This document shows, one piece after another, positions 3,335-30,812 of a stretch of DNA of 32,449 nt. Source of the stretch: a virus. The DNA is taken from IMG/VR virus record IMGVR_UViG_3300025771_000106, positions 1-32,449 of that record. One strand, given 5' to 3'. The notes under the pieces were generated by a model. The model was not told the DNA's origin, made no database searches, and was given only the letters and a program-made list of their open reading frames with translations. The translations under genes and the position numbers were made by a program. The stretch's first letter is position 1. Each line of letters begins with the position of its first letter.

Positions 3335-3843
3335 TGTTGCGCTTTCTCACTGATTCGTCTCAAACCATTGAAGTGGTGACGACCTGTGATCCAGAGGTGT
3401 TATGTGATGACACCCAGAGACAGCTCTATCTTGAATCGGGTGACATCGAGGCGCTTGAGTCAGTTGGTGGGGATGCAACCTGCTTCACGCTCAAGGCGCT
3501 CTCACCGAGTGAGAGGGAACAGGCTGAAGTTAGGGCTGGAGCTCTTCAGCGGTCAGAGCTGGGCCGGCTGCTTTGGTCTGAAGCTCCAAGCGATTCAGCT
3601 GAGCGAGCGCGATGGCATCATGAGTTATCAGATGATGAGCGTGAGGCTATGGCTGGATATCAAGCTTACTTATCAAGGGTCTACCTTGAAATGATTCGAG
3701 GCGCTCTCGTTCACATTGATGGCGAGGCGGCGAGCGTTGAACAGCTCGACATGATTAGGCCAGACAGTCACAGAGTCCAAGTCATCTCAGAGTTGGTCCT
3801 TCACATTCAGAGAATCAGTCTGCTAGGTATTGAGGGAAAATAG
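3334..3843 (+). CDS. tail assembly chaperone, short form (gpG-like)
   Basis: The 169-residue acidic, mostly helical protein lies between the tail tube and the tape measure, where dsDNA phages encode tail-assembly chaperones that coat the tape measure during tail assembly. It ends ...GIEGK and a TAG at 3841, immediately after the heptamer GGGAAAA (3834-3840), which is in the correct phase for -1 ribosomal slippage. The start is in a TGATG overlap with the tube gene. Identification relies on position, size and the slippery site. Confidence 0.68.
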   Translation: MLRFLTDSSQTIEVVTTCDPEVLCDDTQRQLYLESGDIEALESVGGDATCFTLKALSPSEREQAEVRAGALQRSELGRLLWSEAPSDSAERARWHHELSDDEREAMAGYQAYLSRVYLEMIRGALVHIDGEAASVEQLDMIRPDSHRVQVISELVLHIQRISLLGIEGK

Positions 3844-6321: not shown

Positions 6322-7527
6322 ATGCCTTTAAATAATCCTGCTCCTCAGTTTGGGCTGCTCACTGAGTACGACCTGAGAGACCTCAGCGGCGTTAAGCTCT
6401 TCACGCGAGGCGCGAGCCCCATCACCTTTCCCACATTCTCAGCGGGTGAAGGTGTGTATGAAGACGCGCTCTTCCTGCTCAACGGGCGGTCCAGCGCAAC
6501 CAATAACACAGCGACATCACAGGCTCAGAGCTCAGCAACCTTTGGGTCAGGGTGGAGCGTGAGCTTGACTGAAGATGACAAGGTTAGGATTCAGTCAGAC
6601 GCTGACTTCTCGCTTGTGCTCACCGGGTCAAATGACGCGCTAGGCTTTGGCTCAGCCTCCATCTCTGCCACCTTGGTAGGGTCTGACTATGTGGTCACCG
6701 CTCCACATGACTGGACCAGAGGATTACTCGACCTCACCAACGTCACCTACCGAATCACCAAGGCCGGCGGCGCTTCTCAATTTGATTGGCCGGCGTTCTC
6801 AAAAGTCCAGATTCAAGATGTCACCGTCTTCCTGAGAGACCGCTCAGCGGTGAGCGATGCTGACGCCTTCAGCCTCTCCACCATTGAAGAGCTCGATCAG
6901 ACAGCGGTGAGCAATGTGGGCGTTACTTGGTCAGTGACTGATGATGGCTATTGCCGCTGCTACTACCTGAGCTCACTGGGTGACATCACATGGAACAGCG
7001 ACACCTTTAGAGACACGCTAGGCTTTGAGGGTGACGAGACGCCAACGACATCTGGCGGCTATTCAACCCTGACCTCAACTCATAAGATTGCCGGCGTACT
7101 GATCCCATCGAGGCCATATCAAGACCATCACCTCAACGTTGAGAATATGAGCCAATCACGCCGGCTCATTGGCGGTGGCTATGTCTCTAACCATATCGGC
7201 TCTTATGTGGTCAGCTCACTCCTCTTTGACCTTGACGCGCTATTAGATCAGGTGAGTGATTACCGTCACTTCTCAAACCGCTGGCTCCCTCTCTGCTCTT
7301 CAGGTGAGCGAGTGAACTTTTATCAAGGGTGGGGAGACTCAAGGCGCTCACTGAGGTCAGCACAGGTCACAGCCTCACAGCCAGCTTATGACACTCTATA
7401 CTCATCAGAGGATGATGGTGAGTATGGCAGAATCAGAGGGTCACTCCTAACCTCTGAGTTTGGCTTGGTTTATCCCGGCAGGCTTAAGCGGCGTGTCCCT
7501 GTGCAGATGGAGATTGAGCATCTATGA
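6322..7527 (+). CDS. putative distal tail / minor tail protein
   Basis: A 401-residue beta-rich protein of the tail module begins three bases after the tape measure stop, with GGGAG upstream. There is no signature motif. Two halves are each rich in short strands (LTEDDKVRIQSDADFSLVL; VTWSVTDDGYCRCYYLS) that look alike in rhythm and may be related domains: both describe a 'GFGS' or 'GFEGDE' loop after a D-F/T-F-x-[LD] strand. Distal tail proteins commonly follow the tape measure, so that is the likeliest role. It ends in an ATGA overlap with the next gene. Confidence 0.45.
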   Translation: MPLNNPAPQFGLLTEYDLRDLSGVKLFTRGASPITFPTFSAGEGVYEDALFLLNGRSSATNNTATSQAQSSATFGSGWSVSLTEDDKVRIQSDADFSLVLTGSNDALGFGSASISATLVGSDYVVTAPHDWTRGLLDLTNVTYRITKAGGASQFDWPAFSKVQIQDVTVFLRDRSAVSDADAFSLSTIEELDQTAVSNVGVTWSVTDDGYCRCYYLSSLGDITWNSDTFRDTLGFEGDETPTTSGGYSTLTSTHKIAGVLIPSRPYQDHHLNVENMSQSRRLIGGGYVSNHIGSYVVSSLLFDLDALLDQVSDYRHFSNRWLPLCSSGERVNFYQGWGDSRRSLRSAQVTASQPAYDTLYSSEDDGEYGRIRGSLLTSEFGLVYPGRLKRRVPVQMEIEHL

Positions 7528-8600
7528 GTAACTCATTCACCTCGCCACCAGTGCTAGTCGATCCAGCGAGGACAACAGCAGGCTTAACGATTCGATCAGA
7601 AGAGGCTGCACGATTGGGAGACATGAGTAATTATGCTTTTGCTCATCTCGGTTGTGGCAACGTCTTAACTCAAGCTTGGGATGACGACGTCTGGCCTTTC
7701 TCGCTCACCACCATGACTGACGTCTGTGAGTGGATTATCCCTCATCCCAGTGAGGAGCATGTTGAGCTTAAGTTCATCATCATGGCTCACACCACAGCGG
7801 CAGGCTCAACCGCTAAGGTTACCGTTCAATTTCCACTCAGCGGTAACTCTTACTTCTCTACTGCTACCATCACGGACAGCGCTCGATTTGGTTCAAGCTT
7901 TAACGTGATCACTGTGGCCATCAGCGCGGTTGAAGATGAGACTGTCGCTTATGCTCGACTCTCACTCCAAGCGGCAAGCGGCGCGGTGATTGATGTCGCT
8001 GGAGTGCAAGCGAGTTGGAGCCCATTGAGCTCACCTCTGACAACTCGAGCGCTTGACCAATACGGTGCTGAGGTAATCCCTTTTGGAGCTTCTCGCCTCG
8101 CTGCTGACCTTCCTCTGACCTCTCGCTTTGGTGTCGATCAAGTCAACAACATCACCCAGATGAGGAAGAGGATGAGGACGCTGCTGAGCTGGTCTGGTGT
8201 GAGCGAGAGTGACACCTACACGCTTCAAGGCGCTCTCCATAACGCGGCTGAAGGTCTTGGATCATTTGACCCTCAACTGCTCTACTCTGAGGCCGCGCTT
8301 TTCGCTGGCATGTCAGAGAATGATCTAGATGTTGACGTCTACATCAAGGCCGCCAATGTGGGCGGCTCGCCGCTTATCATCGAGGTGTTTGGTTATCGCC
8401 TCTCGATCACCACCAACGGGTGGAGCTCATTCGGGCTTGACCTGAGATTACCTGAGATTGAGAGAGGTGTTGAGTTTAGGCTGCCCATGTATCGAGTGGG
8501 ATTAGAGCCAACTCAGCATAATGCTGATACACTCCTGAGTGATTCTAACAGAATCGCCACAGCGCCACACGTCACCGGCCTTTGTATTCTAGGAGTTTGA
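7524..8600 (+). CDS. minor tail / tail-tip protein, unrecognised family
   Basis: The 358-residue product is rich in Ser, Thr, Ala and Leu with predicted beta structure and no transmembrane segment. It shares general composition with its two neighbours and is coupled to the preceding gene by ATGA. No family motif was recognised. The position between a putative distal tail protein and the large hub protein argues for a tail-tip structural component. Confidence 0.42.
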   Translation: MSNSFTSPPVLVDPARTTAGLTIRSEEAARLGDMSNYAFAHLGCGNVLTQAWDDDVWPFSLTTMTDVCEWIIPHPSEEHVELKFIIMAHTTAAGSTAKVTVQFPLSGNSYFSTATITDSARFGSSFNVITVAISAVEDETVAYARLSLQAASGAVIDVAGVQASWSPLSSPLTTRALDQYGAEVIPFGASRLAADLPLTSRFGVDQVNNITQMRKRMRTLLSWSGVSESDTYTLQGALHNAAEGLGSFDPQLLYSEAALFAGMSENDLDVDVYIKAANVGGSPLIIEVFGYRLSITTNGWSSFGLDLRLPEIERGVEFRLPMYRVGLEPTQHNADTLLSDSNRIATAPHVTGLCILGV

Positions 8601-17522: not shown

Positions 17523-17953
17523 ATCTCTTGATTTGGCTCATCCCTTGGACGCTTTCAGTCGGTGCCAATGAAATCTGGATGGGACGCAATGAACCCAAAG
17601 TGGTAGCTGAGCTCATCGAGCTTCAAGGCAGTCCCTTTATGGCGATGCCTGTTCGTGAGTTCGTTCGAGTCAAGCGCAAGGCTGAGAGCGCTCATGGTTA
17701 CTGTGAGAGCGCTGTTGATGCCGCTGCCCAGACTGCTCATGAGGAGTGCTTGACCCAGATTGAAGAAGCGGTGAACCTCGAGAAAGCCTCACGAGTTGAG
17801 GACCGGCGAACCATTGAAGCGCTTAAGCTTGCGCTCGAGCGTGAGCAGATCCTTAGAGCAGATCATGAGGCGTTCGGGAACACCATGACTTGGGTGAGCG
17901 TGGGCGTGGGCGCTGTTGCAGTGGGGACTACTCTAGCGCTTATTGTTCGCTGA
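17519..17953 (+). CDS. secreted, C-terminally anchored coiled-coil protein, possible spanin partner
   Basis: The 144-residue product starts with a signal-peptide-like stretch (residues 1-16, hydrophobic, then ANE), continues as a charged helix/coiled coil (about 45-118) with two cysteines (62, 77), and ends in a hydrophobic helix (about 122-143). Paired by a 4-base overlap with the gene at 17172, it could be the second member of a spanin-like complex, but it lacks a lipobox cysteine and has a C-terminal anchor, so it is not a standard o-spanin. Its 3' end overlaps the converging minus-strand gene by 21 bases. Confidence 0.38.
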   Translation: MNLLIWLIPWTLSVGANEIWMGRNEPKVVAELIELQGSPFMAMPVREFVRVKRKAESAHGYCESAVDAAAQTAHEECLTQIEEAVNLEKASRVEDRRTIEALKLALEREQILRADHEAFGNTMTWVSVGVGAVAVGTTLALIVR

Positions 17954-18673
17954 GTGGAGCAGGCAGGCTATGCAGGAGCGCTCAGGCTCACCGGGTGTAC
18001 AAGTTGTACACATCTGAGAACGCCACAGCAGATGAAGGGCATAGCGCTGTTCGAGCTGGCTTGGTGTTAAGTCAGTCCAGATTTTACGATAGACGCCCAG
18101 CGCTCTGGCCTTCTCACGATTGAACCATTTCTGAAAGTGATAGTCTCGCTCATAGGCGCGCTTTGCATCTTTCTGGGCTGGTGTCCTTGTTCGGCTTCGC
18201 TTGCGCTGTCTTCGGCGGTCTGATGCTCGATCTCGCTCACGCTGCTCTGGGGTTCGTTGAGCTCTCCACTGCCGCTCATACGCTCTCTGACGCGCTCTAA
18301 AGCCGGCGTGTTTCTCAGGGCTCGCCTTCATTGCTTGATACCACTTCTTGTGGCCTGCTTTGACTTGCTCGCGATATTCCTCACTTGACTGATAACGCCG
18401 CCTTGCTCTCTCCCTCCCTTTCTGCTTATCAGCCTCAATCTTCTCAGGGCTCCTGTTAGCGCGTCTGACCCTCTCCTGCTCTCTCTTCTTGGCGCGATAG
18501 GCTTCGAGCTCCTCTTCACTCATGCTGGCGCGCTTCTGCCTCTTATACTCTCGGTTCTTTCTGCGCTTCTCTTCGATCTGCTCAGGGGTCATCTTGGCGC
18601 GGCGTTTGCGCTGTTGGGCGGTGTTAGCCTTGGTCACTGTCCTGCCTTTTTCGCTGGCGGTATTTGCGTCCAT
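17933..18673 (-). CDS. highly basic repeat protein with C-terminal four-cysteine zinc motif
   Basis: The 246-residue product is dominated by Arg, Lys and Glu in repeats of about 22-27 residues of the form MTPEQ/SPEE-x(4-8)-REYxRxRRA. Its C-terminus holds CTTC-x8-CIAC (Cys222, 225, 234, 237), a likely zinc-binding knuckle. No enzyme motif is visible; the HNH or endonuclease VII histidines that sometimes follow such arginine-rich repeats are absent. It may be a DNA-binding or condensing protein. ATG 18673 overlaps the upstream paralogue by 50 bases; a GTG at 18637 is an alternative start. It is the last gene of the leftward early operon and converges on the tail operon. Confidence 0.55.
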   Translation of the reverse strand: MDANTASEKGRTVTKANTAQQRKRRAKMTPEQIEEKRRKNREYKRQKRASMSEEELEAYRAKKREQERVRRANRSPEKIEADKQKGRERARRRYQSSEEYREQVKAGHKKWYQAMKASPEKHAGFRARQRAYERQWRAQRTPEQRERDRASDRRRQRKRSRTRTPAQKDAKRAYERDYHFQKWFNREKARALGVYRKIWTDLTPSQLEQRYALHLLWRSQMCTTCTPGEPERSCIACLLHSANNKR

Positions 18674-18986
18674 ACTCTCGATGATATGCTAGGTAAGCTT
18701 CACGCTGCTCAGGGGTCATACTGGCTCGTCGCTTGCGGTGATACTCTCGAGCATAGGCCCGTCGTGCTTCACGCTGCTCTGGGGTCATGTTGGCGCGGCG
18801 GCTTCGTTCATACTCGCGCTGTCTCTCATTATAACGCGCTCTTTCCTCTGGAGACCTAGCAGCCCATTGAGCGCGCCTAAACGCCCTGATCTCTGCCTTC
18901 TCCTCCTCGCTCATCATGGCGCGGCGGTTGCGCTCATATTCGCGTTGTTTGGCGAGTCTAGCCGCTCTCTTCTCTTCTGGTGTCAT
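18624..18986 (-). CDS. basic repeat protein, paralogue of the downstream gene
   Basis: Start chosen at ATG 18986, which has AGGAG four bases upstream and lies 10 bases after the RecT-like gene's stop; longer in-frame starts fall inside that gene. The 120-residue product has four to five copies of the MTPEQREARRAYAREYHRKR-type repeat, is strongly positively charged and lacks the zinc motif of its neighbour. Nucleotide similarity between repeats points to expansion by duplication. Predicted as long helices that could lie along nucleic acid. The function is unknown. Confidence 0.55.
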   Translation of the reverse strand: MTPEEKRAARLAKQREYERNRRAMMSEEEKAEIRAFRRAQWAARSPEERARYNERQREYERSRRANMTPEQREARRAYAREYHRKRRASMTPEQREAYLAYHREYGRKYRQRKRQDSDQG

Positions 18987-18996
18987 GTCGCTCCTA

Positions 18997-20127
18997 TCAG
19001 TTAGATCCAAGCTCCATGTCTTCATCAAGCAGGCTCTGGACGAAGTCATAAGCTGTCCAGTCGAGTGGGTGCATCTCCTTAAGAACCGACACTGCCTTCT
19101 CTTGTCGCTCCTTCATCTGGATTGCCTGAGCCAGTTTAAGGGTCTCCATCCAAGCTCCACAGGTCATACGGGGGCCAAAGAACGTAGGCAGCATATAGGT
19201 GAGGATCTTGAACTGCTTGCTGATGTTCTGGTGGTAGGTTCTGCACTCCTCCATAGTACCAGTGAACCAGTTAACCGGGATGCTGGCATCTCTCATCGAG
19301 GTACAAGCAAGGCGCGAGTAGAAGAGCTCCTCTTTCTGCGAGGGCGTGAGCGCTGTGGGTGACTCTACCATGTGAGCCACCAAGTCCATGGCGTCACTCA
19401 GCTCAAGGCCCCAGCCCTTGAGTGCCTTCTGCCAACCCTCCTCTGTGGAGAAGTCATAGAGGCGATTGGGCTCGATCTGCTGTTGTTGCTGTGGTGGCTG
19501 TTGCTGTGGTGCCTGTGAGCGCTGTGGTGCCTGTGAGCGCTGTGGTGCCTGTGGGCGCTGTGGTGGTTGTGTTGGTGGGGCCTCACCGATAGCTTGAGCC
19601 ACCACGCGCTCTCTCTCGTGGTCACTGAGGTTTGAGCTCTCAGCGATCTCATCAGCGCCATAGATGCCGCTGACCGCGTCAGGGAACACAGCCCGAAGCG
19701 CCATCGTTACAACGCGACTCCTGAGCATCTGCATAGGCATCTTCTTCCATGTGTGGCCGCGCTGAGTCAGCCCCATTTGATTTGCCATCTCAATGGTGAA
19801 GGTGAACTCGTGTACGACCTCTTCAGGCTCATCAGTTCGAGCGGTCTTGAGTGTGCAGTGGTTCGCGTCCCAAGAGGTCACTTGGATATAGCGACAGAGC
19901 CCAGAGCGCCTCACGATGCCGGCCATAGGGTCAGCGCCTAGAGTAGGCTTGCCCTGAATGACTGAGCCCTGCTCTGAGAGCATCCCAAGCTCACCGTCAA
20001 AGTGATGGCCAAAGGCCGCGTGAAGGATGATCAGCTCATGTGTCTTGCGCTGGTCGTTGTTGGCGAGGAGCGAGGCCATGTTGATCGCCTCTTGTACATT
20101 TGCTGGGTTCCAGATAGTCTGTCTCAT
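18997..20127 (-). CDS. RecT-family single-strand annealing protein with Pro/Gln linker and extra C-terminal domain
   Basis: The N-terminal 180 residues follow the RecT pattern: GKPTLGADPMAGIVRRSG, a central CRYIQVTSWDA strand, MANQMGLTQRGHTWKKMP, then the helix QMLRSRVVTMALRAVFPD and GIYGADEI. RecT proteins anneal complementary single strands in phage recombination and repair. Residues about 188-217 are a Pro/Gln-rich linker, followed by a helical domain of about 150 residues (Cys-containing, EEGWQKALKGWGLELSD...) with no counterpart that I recognise in E. coli RecT (269 residues), which makes this protein much longer. No RecE- or Exo-like nuclease is adjacent. Leader AAAGGCACAGCCACC precedes the ATG. 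Confidence 0.72.
   Translation of the reverse strand: MRQTIWNPANVQEAINMASLLANNDQRKTHELIILHAAFGHHFDGELGMLSEQGSVIQGKPTLGADPMAGIVRRSGLCRYIQVTSWDANHCTLKTARTDEPEEVVHEFTFTIEMANQMGLTQRGHTWKKMPMQMLRSRVVTMALRAVFPDAVSGIYGADEIAESSNLSDHERERVVAQAIGEAPPTQPPQRPQAPQRSQAPQRSQAPQQQPPQQQQQIEPNRLYDFSTEEGWQKALKGWGLELSDAMDLVAHMVESPTALTPSQKEELFYSRLACTSMRDASIPVNWFTGTMEECRTYHQNISKQFKILTYMLPTFFGPRMTCGAWMETLKLAQAIQMKERQEKAVSVLKEMHPLDWTAYDFVQSLLDEDMELGSN
19504..19566. repeat. 18-bp tandem repeat in the RecT-like linker
   Basis: Three near-identical 18-base units (CTGTGGTGCCTGTGAGCG at 19504, 19522 and, with one change, 19540) followed by a partial unit encode the repeated linker PQRSQA on the minus strand. The unit keeps the reading frame, so copy number would only lengthen or shorten the flexible linker. 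Confidence 0.8.
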
Positions 20128-21228: not shown

Positions 21229-21394
21229 GGTGTGTACCTTTGTTGAAGAGGTTGGTTGGAGTGGGGTGGGTGACTCGCTTGGTCACCCTCATGTAAAACA
21301 TCTTGACACACTCCCCCTCATGTGTCAAGGTGTTTTACACACTTTTTTTGATGGGGGGGTCAAGAGCCTCCCCAGGCACCAACAAGGAACACTC
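21229..21394. promoter_or_regulatory. divergent early control region
   Basis: This 166-base gap separates the leftward operon (start 21228) from the rightward replication operon (start 21395) and must hold promoters for both. It contains the inverted repeat at 21293-21338, a T7 run (21343-21349) directly after it on the plus strand, and a G-run/C-run hairpin (about 21352-21375, GGGGGGG against CCTCCCC) before the AAGGAA ribosome site of the rightward gene. No clean -10 box could be assigned on either side. Confidence 0.6.
21293..21338. promoter_or_regulatory. large inverted repeat, candidate operator with embedded -35 boxes
   Basis: Arms of 18 bases, GTAAAACATCTTGACACA (21293-21310) and TGTGTCAAGGTGTTTTAC (21321-21338), match in reverse complement at 17 of 18 positions around a 10-base C-rich spacer. 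Each arm contains a perfect TTGACA in opposite orientation (plus strand 21303-21308, minus strand 21328-21323), so one protein bound to both arms could control both directions. Seventeen bases beyond each TTGACA are weak -10s (CAAGGT, CAAGAT). Followed by seven T's, it might also behave as a terminator hairpin on the plus strand. Confidence 0.65.
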
Positions 21395-21823
21395 ATGGAC
21401 CCAGCAAAACGCGACATCCTCAATATCAAAGCGCTCGCCAAAGCAGCGGGCTGTTCACGTCAGATGGTTCACCTATCTCTTAAGGGCCAAGCCTATCCAG
21501 CGCGCCAGCTCGCGCTCACCCTATCTCTTAAGGCCAATGAGCTTACGGGGCAGAGCTGCTATGAGCCTCACGACTTCAACCCCACTCTTCCAGAGTCAAC
21601 ACGCAACCTCCTGCCCAGTGTGCGCTTCATTGTCACCAACTTGGACTTCAAGGTGAGTGAGTCCCAGACCGCTGAGGAGCTGCAAGCCGATAACCCTGAT
21701 GACCTCGAACTGCTCACCGCTCTGCATGAGTGCGTCTGGGATGGTCAACGCCAATTGATTCATGGTGGCTCAACCCTCATTGAGCTCGATGACCATGACC
21801 CTGACCTTGTGGACGTCGACTGA
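21395..21823 (+). CDS. HTH DNA-binding regulator
   Basis: ATG 21395 has AAGGAA at good spacing; an in-frame reading further upstream crosses the control region and is rejected. The 142-residue product opens with a Cro/CI-type helix-turn-helix: residues 12-35, ALAKAAGCSRQMVHLSLKG followed by the second helix region, in which GCSRQMVH is the recognition turn. The rest is acidic and ends with an Asp-rich tail. It is the first gene rightward of the divergent control region and therefore the obvious candidate to bind the inverted repeat there. Whether it is a lysogeny-type repressor or an early regulator cannot be decided, since no integrase is in view. Confidence 0.62.
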   Translation: MDPAKRDILNIKALAKAAGCSRQMVHLSLKGQAYPARQLALTLSLKANELTGQSCYEPHDFNPTLPESTRNLLPSVRFIVTNLDFKVSESQTAEELQADNPDDLELLTALHECVWDGQRQLIHGGSTLIELDDHDPDLVDVD

Positions 21824-22569
21824 TGAAAGAGATTGACATCAGAGACGCCATATTAAGGCTTGAACTCAAGCCCAACACCAAGTTGACCCTCATTGGGATA
21901 TTGCGCTTGGTGGACTGGAAGACGTGGGCCGGCCCATGCTCAGCCGCTCAGCTCAGTGAGCGCCTTAACATCAATGATCGAGCGATCAAGCGAGCGTTGA
22001 AAGAGCTGGTTGAGCTGGGACTCATTCAGCGAAGCGCTCAGAGAAGAGGAGGGCTCCAACATCATCGAGCGTTCACCACTCTCAATATTGAGCTTATCCT
22101 TAAGGGTGATTCAGAGGTGACACATAGTCACAGTGACACTATGTCACCCCTAGAAAAGCCCGAAGCTTCAGAGGTGACACATAGTCACAGTGACATAAAG
22201 ACACCCCTGATTGAGCCCGAAACTTCAGAGGTGACACATAGTCACAGTGACAAAGAGACACCTCTAGGGGTGACACATAGTCACATCAGGGGTGACATAA
22301 AGACACCTCTTTTAGATGTGACACATAGTCACCCAATATCAATATCAATAGATAATCAATCAGTAGAGTCAATGAATGAGGAAGACAACCTCATGAGCTC
22401 GCTCTGTGAGCTTGGGTTGGTCCCTGAGAACATTGAGAAGTCAGTTGAGATTCAGATGGGGATTGGCAAGACACGCGAACAAGCGCTGAGGATCTTGCTC
22501 AACATGCAGACTAAGTACATTGAGAACCAGAGACGAGAGAAGCTACTCGTTAGAGGAGGATTCAAATGA
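21823..22569 (+). CDS. replication initiator with winged-helix N-terminus (lambda O-like role)
   Basis: The 248-residue protein has an N-terminal winged-helix domain (about residues 1-95, with LTLIGILRLVDWKTWAGPCS and LNINDRAIKRALKELVELG as the HTH), a central low-complexity part made of VTHSHSD repeats encoded by iterons, and a C-terminal helical domain (about 185-248) probably contacting the helicase loader. This is the layout of lambda O: DNA binding first, origin repeats inside the gene, partner contact last. It is coupled to the HTH gene (stop/start share a base) and to the DnaC-like loader (ATGA). Confidence 0.7.
   Translation: MKEIDIRDAILRLELKPNTKLTLIGILRLVDWKTWAGPCSAAQLSERLNINDRAIKRALKELVELGLIQRSAQRRGGLQHHRAFTTLNIELILKGDSEVTHSHSDTMSPLEKPEASEVTHSHSDIKTPLIEPETSEVTHSHSDKETPLGVTHSHIRGDIKTPLLDVTHSHPISISIDNQSVESMNEEDNLMSSLCELGLVPENIEKSVEIQMGIGKTREQALRILLNMQTKYIENQRREKLLVRGGFK
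22117..22332 (+). repeat. iterons, candidate replication origin
   Basis: The 15-mer GTGACACATAGTCAC occurs exactly at 22117, 22174, 22231, 22270 and 22318, with start spacings of 57, 57, 39 and 48 bases. Each is a GTGAC-N5-GTCAC dyad. A related dyad (GTGACACTATGTCAC) follows the first at 22133, and degenerate versions (GTGAC-N5-GACAC) follow the second, third and fourth. Iterons inside an initiator gene are the hallmark of lambdoid origins. Confidence 0.85.
22333..22380. other. AT-rich tract beside the iterons, candidate DNA-unwinding element
   Basis: Directly after the last iteron come about 45 AT-rich bases with repeated AATATCAATATCAAT and AGATAATCAATCA elements, in contrast to the surrounding coding DNA. 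The order iterons then AT-rich stretch matches oriLambda. It encodes the linker ISISIDNQS of the initiator. Confidence 0.65.
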
Positions 22570-23495
22570 GCGACTTCACGCGACTTGGCAGCGCCCAAGA
22601 ATGGGACCAAATCAGCCACAGGCTCACAGAGCTCAAAGCCCAATTTCAAATGAGACAACTCCACAGTCCAAGAGAGGCTAAACAACTCGGTGACTACTCA
22701 CACCTCAACAGCGTTAACCTCGAGGAGCTAGACTGGATCGACGAAGCGGCGCCGCGCCTCACTGTCAAAGAGGTTCCGTTATGCGGTCGATGTGATGATG
22801 GTTGGTTGAGAGTGCAGGAGACTCGCAACTGCGTGAAGCTCTGCCATTATTGCGAGTTACCCAGAAGGAGAGCGAAGCGCCTCAATAAGCTGGAGCTCCC
22901 TGCTGACTCAGTTGGCATGCACCTTGGCCGCTACATCTGGGATAACGCCAATCAAGAGCAACTCATCACCTCAATGCTCAATCACCTCAACAAGTCACAG
23001 CGGCTCCCTCATTGCCCTTCTGCATATCTCTGGGGACCACCGGGCAACGGTAAAACCTCTCTCCTTTACTGCCTAGCGCGTTGGGGGTGCTTCAATGATC
23101 TCAGAGTCACCTACATCAGCCACACCAACCTCATGAACCAAATCAAGGAAGGCTTCGGAGACAACAAGCGGCGCGATCCTTTACGCGGTTGGCTCGATAG
23201 CACTGACCTGCTCTTGCTCGATGAGCTGGGAGGGCTTGGAGGTCACGCGAATAAAACCGCGTGGTATGTCAGCCAGACCACGGAGATTCTCGGCTCAATC
23301 TATGAGCGCTGGTCAGGAGGTAAGCTTGGAGTGGTGATGACAAGCAACCTCCAACCTCAACAGCTCGCTCAGGTCTTTGGGCGCAACGTTGCAGCGCTCA
23401 GTCGTCTTCGTGCAATGTTTGGGTCTCCCATCCAGATGACTGGACCTGACCGGAGACAGAGCGCTGATGAGCGTTTAAAGGAGTGGGGGCTCTAA
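22566..23495 (+). CDS. helicase loader, DnaC/DnaI-type AAA+ ATPase with zinc ribbon
   Basis: The 309-residue product has an N-terminal helical domain, a zinc ribbon (CGRC at 73-76 and CHYC at 93-96), then an AAA+ core with Walker A GPPGNGKT (157-164), Walker B LLLLDE (215-220), a sensor-1-like VVMTSNL (about 260) and an arginine-bearing tail (LSRLRAMFG). It closely follows the DnaC/DnaI/IstB pattern, in which the protein delivers the replicative helicase to the origin. The zinc ribbon is like Bacillus DnaI rather than E. coli DnaC. It overlaps the initiator by ATGA, as lambda P follows O. There is no phage helicase or polymerase in the window, so host enzymes are presumably recruited. Confidence 0.8.
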   Translation: MSDFTRLGSAQEWDQISHRLTELKAQFQMRQLHSPREAKQLGDYSHLNSVNLEELDWIDEAAPRLTVKEVPLCGRCDDGWLRVQETRNCVKLCHYCELPRRRAKRLNKLELPADSVGMHLGRYIWDNANQEQLITSMLNHLNKSQRLPHCPSAYLWGPPGNGKTSLLYCLARWGCFNDLRVTYISHTNLMNQIKEGFGDNKRRDPLRGWLDSTDLLLLDELGGLGGHANKTAWYVSQTTEILGSIYERWSGGKLGVVMTSNLQPQQLAQVFGRNVAALSRLRAMFGSPIQMTGPDRRQSADERLKEWGL

Positions 23496-24175
23496 TGAAT
23501 GGACTCGACAAGCAAACGTTTGAATCTGACTTCTACGTCTATCGCTTAAGCTGTGAAGAACACGGTGTTTATTATATCGGCTCTCACTTTTGCACTGGTC
23601 GCTCTTCCAGCTGCTCTGCTAAGAGGTGTAATTATCTCCATAAGTCACATGGTGCAAGGAAGCTTGAAAGGCTCTATCCTGACAGTGAATGGACACACGA
23701 GATTATTAGCTGGGCTGAATCTAGAGAGGAACTGGCTGCACAAGAGGTGAGCTTTCTTCAGTCTCATGTTGGACGCGATGGCTGCTTAAATGAGACTGTG
23801 GCTTCTCCAACTCGAACGCCAACTTATACACAAGAATCTCTAGAGGCATTAAGGAGAGCGGCAAGGAGAAAGACCATAACGCTCAAGCTCCCAAGCGGCG
23901 AGCTTCAGGAGTTTAAGCGTCACGAGATATCATCAGCGATTCTTAGAGGTTATACTTTTAAAAACGTTAATATAAGCCTTGTGAATCACGAAAGACGCCA
24001 ATTTGGGAGATTCTCATCAGTGACTGCCCGTAGGATTTGGAAACACTTAGAAGAGCAAGGCTGGGAGTTTGGGTACTGTGGGGAATATGAGAGCCTTAAT
24101 GCTAGGCAGCTCTTAGATAGCTTAGATTTAATTGAAGAGGTTGTAAGCCTTGTCACCTACAGAAAAAAAAGATGA
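23495..24175 (+). CDS. GIY-YIG family endonuclease, probably homing
   Basis: ATG 23495 shares a base with the loader stop (TAATG) and is preferred to a GTG at 23483. The 226-residue product starts with FYVYRLSCEEHGVYYIGSH, a GIY-YIG signature, followed by a cysteine-containing loop (FCTGRSSSC..KRC), a catalytic-type Glu in SREELAAQEVSFLQ and Asn in GCLNE. A C-terminal region (about 125-226) looks like a DNA-binding extension. Codon use is more AT-rich than the replication genes around it. Freestanding GIY-YIG enzymes are common mobile genes in phages. The intergenic DNA after it is structured (24176-24368). Confidence 0.68.
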   Translation: MNGLDKQTFESDFYVYRLSCEEHGVYYIGSHFCTGRSSSCSAKRCNYLHKSHGARKLERLYPDSEWTHEIISWAESREELAAQEVSFLQSHVGRDGCLNETVASPTRTPTYTQESLEALRRAARRKTITLKLPSGELQEFKRHEISSAILRGYTFKNVNISLVNHERRQFGRFSSVTARRIWKHLEEQGWEFGYCGEYESLNARQLLDSLDLIEEVVSLVTYRKKR

Positions 24176-24782: not shown

Positions 24783-24980
24783 ATGAGTGAGAAGAGCCAG
24801 ATGATAGCCTTGAGAGTGACGCCCAGTGAGCACAGCTTTGTGGCCTCTGAGGCTAAGAAATTCGGCTGCACAAGCTCAGCGCTCATCAGGGCTTTGATCA
24901 AGATCCACTTCGACTCCCGAAAGAATCAAGGCGATTTGGCTCAACGTGTTGAGCGACACTTGGAGACACCACATGATTAA
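24783..24980 (+). CDS. ribbon-helix-helix (CopG/Arc-like) DNA-binding protein
   Basis: ATG 24783 is placed behind TTGGAGG; an upstream in-frame reading runs through the promoter and terminator and is rejected. The 65-residue product has an N-terminal strand MIALRVTPSEH and two helices (FVASEAKKFGCTSSALIRALIKIHF), the usual RHH layout. RHH proteins bind palindromic operators as dimers, so the perfect palindrome at 24662-24679 is a natural target, giving autoregulation. It overlaps the SSB start by eight bases. Confidence 0.6.
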   Translation: MSEKSQMIALRVTPSEHSFVASEAKKFGCTSSALIRALIKIHFDSRKNQGDLAQRVERHLETPHD

Positions 24981-25347
24981 CAAGATTACCCTCATTGGGA
25001 ATCTGGGCAAAGATGCCGAGATGAGACAGACGACCGGCGGCGCTTCATATTGCGCTTTCTCTGTGGCCACCTCAGAGCGGCGCAAGCAAGGAGAGGAATG
25101 GGTTGAGGAGACCGAGTGGCACACGGTTAAGGTCTGGGGTATTTCAGCGCCTCGAGCTGCTGAGCTGAAGAAAGGCAACAAGGTATATATCGAGGGCAAG
25201 CTGAAGTCATATGAGGTCAATGGTCAACGACGTTGGGAAGTTGTCGCTCACAACTGGAAGAGCCTGATGACCAAGAGTGACCACCTCTTACCTCCTGACC
25301 CACCACACCAGACCACATGGAACGCTGTACCCGGGGGATGGTCATGA
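24973..25347 (+). CDS. ssb: single-stranded DNA-binding protein
   Basis: Start at ATG 24973 (MINKITLIGNLGKDAE) matches the canonical SSB N-terminus; nine extra upstream codons are rejected. The 124-residue product has the OB-fold landmarks: LIGNLGKDAE, FSVATSE, EETEWHTVKVWG and GNKVYIEGKLKSYEV. It coats single-stranded DNA during replication and recombination. It is shorter than E. coli SSB (178 residues), and its C-terminus is Pro/Trp-rich and ends PGGWS, lacking the acidic DDDIPF-type tip through which SSB recruits partners. Confidence 0.9.
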   Translation: MINKITLIGNLGKDAEMRQTTGGASYCAFSVATSERRKQGEEWVEETEWHTVKVWGISAPRAAELKKGNKVYIEGKLKSYEVNGQRRWEVVAHNWKSLMTKSDHLLPPDPPHQTTWNAVPGGWS

Positions 25348-29174: not shown

Positions 29175-29631
29175 ACACATCCTCTTGAGGCTTCAGCAGG
29201 CTGAGCTCTTAGGCCAGATGTCAACGTGTCCACGCGGTCAAGTCGGGGCTGTGATCTTCGAGCCCTTTAGCTGGGTGGTGGTTGCTGATGGTTATAATGG
29301 CCCTCCCAGAGGAGGCGGCGAGCTCTGCGGCGAGGATCACTGTAGGCGTAACCTCTTAGAGATAATCTCTGGCTCGATGACTGAAACGGGCTGCCATCAC
29401 GCAGAGGCCAACGCCATCGTCAACGCGGCGAGGCGAGGCGCGCCCACTCGAGGTGCTTGGCTTGCAGTTACAAGAGCGCCTTGTTTGAGTTGTGCTAAGA
29501 TCGTCCATCACGCTGGAATCAAGAGGGTCTTTGTTTTTGCTTCCGAGTCGGAACCAAACCTAAGCGGCGTGAGTTATTTAGAGCAACATCAAGTGAGCGT
29601 GGAGTATGTTGAACGAGTCAGAGCAATATAA
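29167..29631 (+). CDS. deoxycytidylate deaminase (dCMP deaminase)
   Basis: The 154-residue product shows the zinc deaminase motifs CHHAEANAIVNAA (His78, Glu80) and PCLSCAK (Cys106, Cys109), plus the N-terminal CPRGQVGAVI segment typical of phage dCMP deaminases. It converts dCMP to dUMP, the substrate of the neighbouring ThyX. The gene overlaps both neighbours. Riboflavin-type or ComE-type deaminases are less likely given the ThyX partner. Confidence 0.88.
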   Translation: MNKHILLRLQQAELLGQMSTCPRGQVGAVIFEPFSWVVVADGYNGPPRGGGELCGEDHCRRNLLEIISGSMTETGCHHAEANAIVNAARRGAPTRGAWLAVTRAPCLSCAKIVHHAGIKRVFVFASESEPNLSGVSYLEQHQVSVEYVERVRAI

Positions 29632-30382
29632 AGAGCGGTCGCTCACAATTGTGCTTTTAGACTTGGTCAACTCAACTGGCTTTGTTGAGGCCGCTGGCGC
29701 TCAACGTGCAGCGCGGTGGTTTCAGTATCACGACAGATTAGCGCGCTCTCTCCTCTATCGCTTCAGCGGCCGAGAGATCGACAGGTCAGACGGTTTCCTC
29801 TTCACGTTTGATCGAGTGTTTGACGCGCTCAACTTCGCGCTTTATTACCAACAAACGATTCCACAGAAGACCAGAATAAAAGCGAGGATTGGGATTCATT
29901 ACGGAAGCGTTGTTGAAGTTCATCAACATGAGCTTTTAGTTTTAGTGGGAGCCAAGCCCATCGAGGTGGAAGGCTTATCTAAAAATATTGCAGCGCGAAC
30001 TATGAGCCTCGCCCAACCTGACCAAATCCTGATGACCAAGCCAGCGTTCGAGCGAGTCAAGAACCGCTTCGACGTGATGACCCCGAAAGGTACGCGCTAC
30101 GCTTGTGTAGGGCTTTACCGATATCAAGGCGTCAAAGAAGCTCAGGTCGTGTATGCGGTGGGCTCTGACATCAAAGCGCTTCAGCCTCCACCATCAACCG
30201 CTAAGGTCAAGAGGTTGGGTGGACCCAGAAAGGTCAGGTCTCGAATGCGGCACAAATCATTTTTAGAGTGGGCTGAGTTTATCCTGCTCTTTTTATTTTG
30301 GTTAGCTCTGGGCTATTTGGTCGCTCACATGTGGCCATACATTAAATTTAAATTCTGGGAGTGGTGGAATGAACAACGATGA
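29606..30382 (+). CDS. membrane-anchored class III nucleotidyl cyclase
   Basis: The 258-residue product has a class III cyclase homology domain (about residues 12-185). Both metal-binding aspartates are present: Asp19 in TIVLLDLVNST and Asp62 in GREIDRSDGF. The transition-state pair is present too: Asn127 and Arg131 in GLSKNIAAR. The middle RIGIHYGSV strand is canonical. The IEVEGLSK segment puts Glu120 where adenylyl cyclases usually have Asp. GREIDRSDGF and GAKPIEVEGLSKNIAARTMSLA follow a proteobacterial cyclase subgroup. A Pro-rich linker leads to a basic stretch and one C-terminal membrane helix (about 223-244), so the catalytic domain faces the cytoplasm if the anchor is N-in. The nucleotide used (ATP, GTP, CTP or UTP) cannot be read with confidence. 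Confidence 0.85.
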   Translation: MLNESEQYKERSLTIVLLDLVNSTGFVEAAGAQRAARWFQYHDRLARSLLYRFSGREIDRSDGFLFTFDRVFDALNFALYYQQTIPQKTRIKARIGIHYGSVVEVHQHELLVLVGAKPIEVEGLSKNIAARTMSLAQPDQILMTKPAFERVKNRFDVMTPKGTRYACVGLYRYQGVKEAQVVYAVGSDIKALQPPPSTAKVKRLGGPRKVRSRMRHKSFLEWAEFILLFLFWLALGYLVAHMWPYIKFKFWEWWNEQR

Positions 30383-30812
30383 AGAAAAAAAAACAAAACG
30401 CGGCTGGTGGTTCTCTGTAATCTTTATGGGTTTGGTGATGGGCCTGATTATTTTTTTGGCTCGCGTGGAGATAATCGAAAAGAACCGAGATGTGCTCATC
30501 GGGATTCTCGGGATGATCACAGGCTCAATTTCCTCAATGCTTGCGATCGCTTCGGGGCGCGACCCCGCCGAAGTCGATGAGCTCAGAGCAGAGGTAGCCA
30601 AGCTCAACGCTGACAGAGCAGCGTTAATTGCTCGCTTGAGAGACGCTAATATTCAGCTTCAGCTTAAAAATGATCATCTATTAGAATTACAATTAGCGAT
30701 GATAAAAGCGCTCACCAAGCTAGAGGTGAATTTTGTTTCTGAAGAAGTTGAGCTTCATGAACAGGTCAAGGAGTGGTTACCTTCTGTTGAAAAAACAGAA
30801 TCAAACAGCTAG
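30369..30812 (+). CDS. two-TM coiled-coil membrane protein, cyclase partner or holin-like
   Basis: The start overlaps the cyclase gene by 14 bases. The 147-residue product has a basic N-terminus, two membrane helices (about 13-31 and 42-62) and a long charged coiled coil (about 67-118). Such proteins can be effectors, anchors or holin-like pore formers. The overlap says it is made with the cyclase, suggesting a common function. It carries no recognisable cyclic-nucleotide-binding domain, so a sensor role would need a new fold. The helix pair with the GILGMITGSISSMLAIASGRD motif is also seen in small phage membrane proteins of unknown role. Confidence 0.6.
   Translation: MNNDEEKKTKRGWWFSVIFMGLVMGLIIFLARVEIIEKNRDVLIGILGMITGSISSMLAIASGRDPAEVDELRAEVAKLNADRAALIARLRDANIQLQLKNDHLLELQLAMIKALTKLEVNFVSEEVELHEQVKEWLPSVEKTESNS

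Follow-up and report, generated by a model that had tools for sequence, protein, structure and literature searches.

Nine dyads inside a phage initiator gene: a probable lambda-like origin and the recognition-helix residue that covaries with it

Why would a phage carry nine similar dyads in the middle of the gene for its own replication initiator? The window, by which we mean the whole 32,449-nucleotide stretch of viral DNA analysed (IMG/VR record IMGVR_UViG_3300025771_000106), raises this question with an array at 22117-22332, inside an O-like replication initiator gene at 21823-22569 on the plus strand. The full explanation that we favor, at a probability of roughly 0.88, is that the dyads are iterons, bound by the initiator in whose gene they lie, and together form the phage replication origin. 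Its computed support consists of the site array, selection on DNA at the codon level, the spread of the sites over initiator families, covariation between residue 57 of the initiator and base 5 of the site, an AT-rich tract and a neighboring helicase loader.

The initiator comprises 248 residues, with a winged helix-turn-helix (wHTH) domain at approximately residues 12-92, a disordered linker at 98-183 and a C-terminal helical domain at 186-244. It matches HTH_36 (32.0 bits against a cutoff of 25), phrog_270 'replication initiation protein' (3.8e-9) and phrog_391 'O-like' (1.1e-8), and by these profile matches it belongs to the HTH_36/phrog_270 initiators. In the AlphaFold2 model, pLDDT is mostly above 90 in the wHTH and 31-38 in the linker. 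The recognition helix of the winged helix spans residues 52-64 of the model (codons 21976-22014, plus strand) and bears both R53 (21979-21981, plus strand) and R57 (21991-21993, plus strand), which are invariant among 17 homologs. A search of cultured phages found no convincing relative of this initiator or of the adjacent loader.

The nine 15-bp sites share the consensus GTGACA-N4-G-N-CAC, all on the plus strand, and lie between the codons of the wHTH and those of the C-terminal domain. An earlier sequence-only reading of this DNA had reported five exact copies of a 15-mer that encode the peptide VTHSH. We find these copies of GTGACACATAGTCAC at 22117-22131, 22174-22188, 22231-22245, 22270-22284 and 22318-22332 (iterons 1, 3, 5, 7 and 9), all in frame 0 of the 248-codon ORF and all encoding VTHSH. 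The remaining sites had been described as one close and several decayed dyads, a description that does not hold: GTGACACTATGTCAC at 22133-22147 (iteron 2), GTGACATAAAGACAC at 22190-22204 and 22292-22306 (iterons 4 and 8) and GTGACAAAGAGACAC at 22247-22261 (iteron 6) all match the consensus exactly and are conserved. Being in frame 1, these four sites are translated as SDxxSP/SDxxTP or GDIKTP. Iteron 2, a perfect GTGACA-N3-TGTCAC dyad (GTGACA-CTA-TGTCAC), is the most symmetric of the nine, and the position of iteron 6 is occupied by GTGACACTATGTCAC in a 92% identical relative (L002), with the arms unchanged. The reported spacing in multiples of three applies to the five frame-0 copies (57, 57, 39, 48) and not to the full array, where sites follow one another at 16, 41, 16, 41, 16, 23, 22 and 26 nt. 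Matches to the 15-mer with at most three mismatches number 10, against 0.77 expected by chance, and GTG-N9-CAC occurs on the plus strand nine times in the initiator gene versus seven times in the remaining 31.7 kb. We define the GTG-N9-CAC iteron class as 15-bp sites that follow a wHTH with R53 in its recognition helix; with nine sites, R53 and R57, the window belongs to this class.

The repeats could instead be a low-complexity peptide linker, grown by in-frame tandem duplication, in which the DNA has no function and the sameness of the copies reflects recent ancestry. The 57-nt in-frame units, the disorder of the linker and the recurrence of 57-nt two-site periods in three relatives (L026, L054 and L083) fit growth of this kind. 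We compared the array with a codon null of 5000 genes, in which the protein was kept and synonymous codons were resampled from the phage's own usage. The resampled genes contain on average 0.005 exact copies and 0.12 consensus sites, and none of the 5000 has the five or the nine seen in the window. The same test gave 0/5000 in three relatives, each with its own sites. Between the window and L002, none of 90 arm positions has changed, versus 7 of 45 spacer positions (Fisher 3e-4); in the part of the gene that does not belong to the array, 39 of 531 positions differ. Each of the seven spacer changes sits in a codon with an altered amino acid; that the arms stay constant while the spacers change with amino-acid replacements argues against a peptide-driven origin of the repeats. 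A 59% relative (L003) has ten sites at intervals of 21-24 nt; all occupy the other frame, where they encode PPSDIVTP repeats. As the sites are kept there with an unrelated peptide, it is the DNA and not the peptide that is under selection. Sites maintained in two reading frames and with other peptides in relatives, together with the same site in 39 initiator families that have the predicted helix residue, leave the peptide-linker explanation very unlikely.

Reading frame bears on which peptides can occur. Over 43 families, forward-type sites are in frame 1 (36) or frame 0 (18); none is in frame 2, in which GTGACA would introduce a TGA stop. Because frame 2 is closed in this way, two peptides recur, VTxxH and SDxxSP, and VTHSH is a by-product of the DNA sites. 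The earlier proposal that the same DNA is both a set of protein-binding sites and a linker is upheld for the sites, which covary with the recognition helix, and revised for the VTHSH peptide, which is only such a by-product. An ancestral double-site unit, likewise proposed, agrees with the 57-nt periods of L026, L054 and L083; the single sites every 21-24 nt in L003 and L010 indicate that the two-site unit is a unit of duplication and is not obligatory. The locus would be a clean case of one DNA stretch used as binding sites and as coding sequence, a stop codon within the site restricting the frames it can occupy.

We scanned 2.9 million viral contigs for pairs of GTGACA-type sites within 30 nt, using DNA alone and no protein information, and found at least 119 loci; among the matches listed the array lay inside an O-like wHTH ORF in 85 of 119. 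A scrambled dyad of the same shape gave none in such ORFs out of 55 loci, its ORFs being mainly tail fibres. Since the scrambled dyad also gave 55 contigs, we rejected the raw match count as proof; the gene matched is what decides. Among the matches listed, 73 of 86 array-bearing ORFs match phrog_270 and 61 of 86 match HTH_36. Across arrays the ideal site is GTGACA-N3-TGTCAC, usually spaced at 21-23 or 45 nt, and the genes downstream often encode DnaC-like or P-like loaders or DnaB-like helicases. The idea that GTGACA sites are universal was also discarded, as they are one class among several in homologs found by protein. A motif scan of bacterial genomes was diluted, with about 8 of 78 ORFs O-like, and a search of bacterial genomes for relatives of the loader found none.

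An independent set of O-like genes was collected from bacterial genomes by protein only, excluding six seed genes that came from the bacterial motif scan, to give 50 non-redundant genes. These genes contain 33 GTG-N9-CAC sites where the codon null gives 7.7, and of all 64 X-N9-rc(X) patterns the commonest is that with GTG. The seven genes that have two or more sites all encode R53, as does every seed gene; in those genes, base 5 is C with R57 and almost always A with Asn, Ala or Asp at position 57. Three homologs from one genome differ accordingly in a nearly constant background, one with R57 and GTGAC (L338) and two with A57 and GTGAA...TGCAC (L323 and L337), and a homolog from another genome (L324) has N57 with GTGAA.

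A prediction, that A at base 5 goes with an initiator without R57, was set before a scan for pairs of GTGAANNNNNTKCAC. In that scan, 105 of 120 loci lay in O-like wHTH ORFs. R57 is present in 36 of 39 GTGAC families and in 0 of 18 GTGAA families (Fisher 4e-12), and after clustering at 35% identity in 14 of 16 versus 0 of 10 (p 1e-5), so that the prediction held on data fetched afterwards. Residue 57 ranks first of the 64 domain columns for covariation, with a z of 16 versus 3.3 for the next. Comparison of the iterons with the HTH in related phages, a check suggested by the sequence-only reading, thus yields covariation of residue 57 with base 5 over 57 families. Arg reading G and Asn reading A are standard contacts. 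By this covariation, the initiator's own recognition helix almost certainly reads these sites.

The residue-base code is not strict: residue 57 is R, R, K, E and N in five GTGAT families. An extension of the code to T5 sites was dropped, since no more than 6 of the 15 loci were O-like and residue 57 varied among R, K, E and N. Cultured phages conform to the code: Vibrio phage D77 has R57 with GTGAC sites, two of its three having one T5 half, and cultured mEp460, ST64B and PseuP_222 have N57 with GTGCA/GTGAA sites. In a distant relative whose loader is 47% identical (L008), 24-nt repeats GTGACAACAGAATGTGGTCAG occupy the initiator linker at 3675-3790; the GTGAC half-site and R57 are kept, the geometry is wider, and residue 53 is Met, so that these are GTGAC repeats of another geometry without R53. 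Another homolog (L369) has R53 and R57 and a linker with five sites of the CCGAC/CTGAC-N5-GTCAC type, which suggests, on sequence grounds, that the outer GTG can drift in one of the half-sites.

The same covariation bears on two other explanations of the dyads. GTGAC-N5-GTCAC resembles a generic dimer operator, and the sites could be bound by a host regulator or host initiator and not by the phage protein. Base 5 tracks the phage's residue 57 both within one host genome and across phages of unrelated hosts, which makes the probability of a host reader close to negligible. Alternatively, the dyads could form RNA hairpins in the mRNA, acting in attenuation or translational control. The RNA of the array does fold well (z -7.8), as expected of any set of inverted repeats, a value that does not discriminate between the explanations. 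Hairpins do not predict that base 5 should covary with a residue of the recognition helix, and many copies are incompletely symmetric with their outer positions fixed (for example GTGACATAAAGACAC), which suits protein contacts better than pairing; we give this explanation hardly any credence.

The surroundings of the sites also resemble those of an origin. Directly after the array, at 22333-22382, is the AT-rich tract that the sequence-only reading had described, a candidate DNA-unwinding element. Its AT content is 70%, that of the genome 47%, and 0.3% of 50-nt windows in the genome are at least as rich. The interval 22117-22380 that had been assigned to the origin does contain the array, which ends at 22332, and the rest of it covers this tract. 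At the same position in three relatives AT content is 66-70%, and over 41 unrelated arrays the 50 nt that follow are 10.5 points richer in AT than the contig mean, the sequence before by only 1.8 points. Directly downstream of the initiator gene, a DnaC-like AAA+ helicase loader is encoded at 22566-23495 on the plus strand (phrog_50, 1.1e-24; IstB_IS21, 36.5 bits against a cutoff of 24.1), its start overlapping the initiator stop by 4 nt (ATGA). The same replication region encodes a single-strand DNA-binding protein at 24946-25347, plus strand (PF00436, 8.9e-26; phrog_44, 5.7e-27). Between these two genes, directly after the loader, a plus-strand ORF at 23483-24175 is weakly GIY-YIG/homing-endonuclease-like (phrog_314, 2e-4; Pfam GIY-YIG not significant). 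GC skew across the 32-kb phage has no switch at the array site, a result that is weak either way at such a size.

Binding of the sites by the initiator might mainly serve to repress or regulate its own operon, with the origin elsewhere. Covariation shows only binding by the protein's own wHTH, and the solved folds nearest to the initiator model are mostly MarR-type and other winged-helix regulators. Against autoregulation stand the position of the sites in mid-gene and not at a promoter, the AT tract after the array in 41 unrelated families, the frequent helicase loaders or DnaB-like helicases downstream, and the identical layout of lambda. We regard autoregulation as the main role of the sites as unlikely.

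In lambda, the iterons lie within O, and P overlaps O by 4 nt (PMC7466680; lambda annotation). The window and the lambda origin share iterons placed midway along the initiator gene, an adjoining AT-rich tract, a 4-nt loader overlap and a DNA-binding part encoded upstream of the array. The proteins and sites themselves differ. The window initiator scores 15.5 bits for PF04492, below the cutoff of 28.7, while lambda O itself scores 123.4, and by BLASTP the initiator has no similarity to lambda O (E 0.99). Its iterons are nine 15-bp sites of the GTGAC-N5-GTCAC type, whereas lambda has four annotated 18-bp sites of another sequence. The loader, unlike lambda P (PF06992), is a DnaC-like AAA+ protein that matches IstB/DnaC-type families only. 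The architecture of an intragenic origin is already known, and the initiator and loader found here are not lambda O and P. By analogy, the window's origin would work like the lambda origin, whose layout it has, and is lambda-type only as architecture. The proposal of a lambda-like origin in the initiator gene, with dyad iterons and an AT tract, is in this sense strongly supported by anatomy and by the covariation of helix and site.

We propose the following mechanism for the origin. The N-terminal winged helix, probably as one dimer per site, would bind each iteron, with R53 and R57 reading, in each half-site, the outer GTG and the base pair at position 5. Several initiator dimers would assemble over the array, and the flanking 70% AT tract would open. 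The C-terminal helical domain would then recruit the DnaC-like loader encoded next door, which would load the replicative helicase of the host onto the exposed strand. It is by reference to lambda that we infer the binding as dimers, the opening of the strands, the recruitment of the loader and the point where replication begins. The array may be tolerated within the gene because the encoded linker is disordered, so that almost any in-frame peptide suffices.

Lengthening of the linker has a parallel in the lambdoid origins of Shiga-toxin phages, where additional iterons insert further residues into the O linker (PMC7466680); those iterons are of the lambda type. Closer to the window are the HTH_36 'replication protein O' proteins of SfV, mEp460, ST64B and many prophages (phrog_270), which share the wHTH family, R53 and a linker array of 15-bp GTG-N9-CAC sites; they have N57 with GTGCA/GTGAA, whereas the window has R57 with GTGAC. 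In the records of the cultured HTH_36/phrog_270 members examined, the gene is named and no iteron annotation is present. The O-like initiator of Aggregatibacter phage S1249 likewise has a linker repeat array and a P-like loader next to it, but its residue 53 is Ala and no GTG-N9-CAC site occurs there. In the open-licence literature, we found no published account of the site class or of the covariation between residue 57 and base 5, which is weak evidence of absence.

Beyond this locus, we think it reasonably probable that a very large, mostly uncultured set of phages has the same type of self-encoded origin, made of 15-bp GTG-N9-CAC iterons in the disordered HTH_36 linker, that residue 53 goes with GTG while residue 57 selects base 5 (Arg with C; Asn, Thr, Asp and others with A), that pairs and compatibility classes can be predicted, and that the class has switched repeatedly by one residue together with the whole array. 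Initiator and origin would then evolve as a locked pair, and the iteron class could explain which related phages, satellites and plasmids share replication proteins. Origins of uncultured phages are rarely located; here a probable one was found from sequence, its binding protein was named and one contact was predicted. Phage replication start points may be readable from sequence alone.

Other features of the window deserve mention. Between divergent gene sets, at 21292-21339, is a near-perfect inverted repeat (TGTAAAACATCTTGACACA / TGTGTCAAGGTGTTTTACA) with 19-nt arms (95%) and a 10-nt gap, likely an operator for an early regulator. On the minus strand, 17933-18673 and 18624-19049 are paralogs with overlapping ends, rich in 'RRxxMTPEQRE' repeats, and a similar ORF is found in L008 at 7285-7596; judged by this recurrence, basic proteins with such repeats may be an early feature that is conserved. 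Further downstream, the plus-strand gene at 29606-30382 encodes a class III nucleotide cyclase domain (Guanylate_cyc, 23.7 bits against a cutoff of 21.9), with a weak PycC/Pycsar match (2.5e-4). The next gene, at 30369-30812, has a translation with a hydrophobic N-terminal stretch, and the two are possibly a phage-carried Pycsar-like pair.
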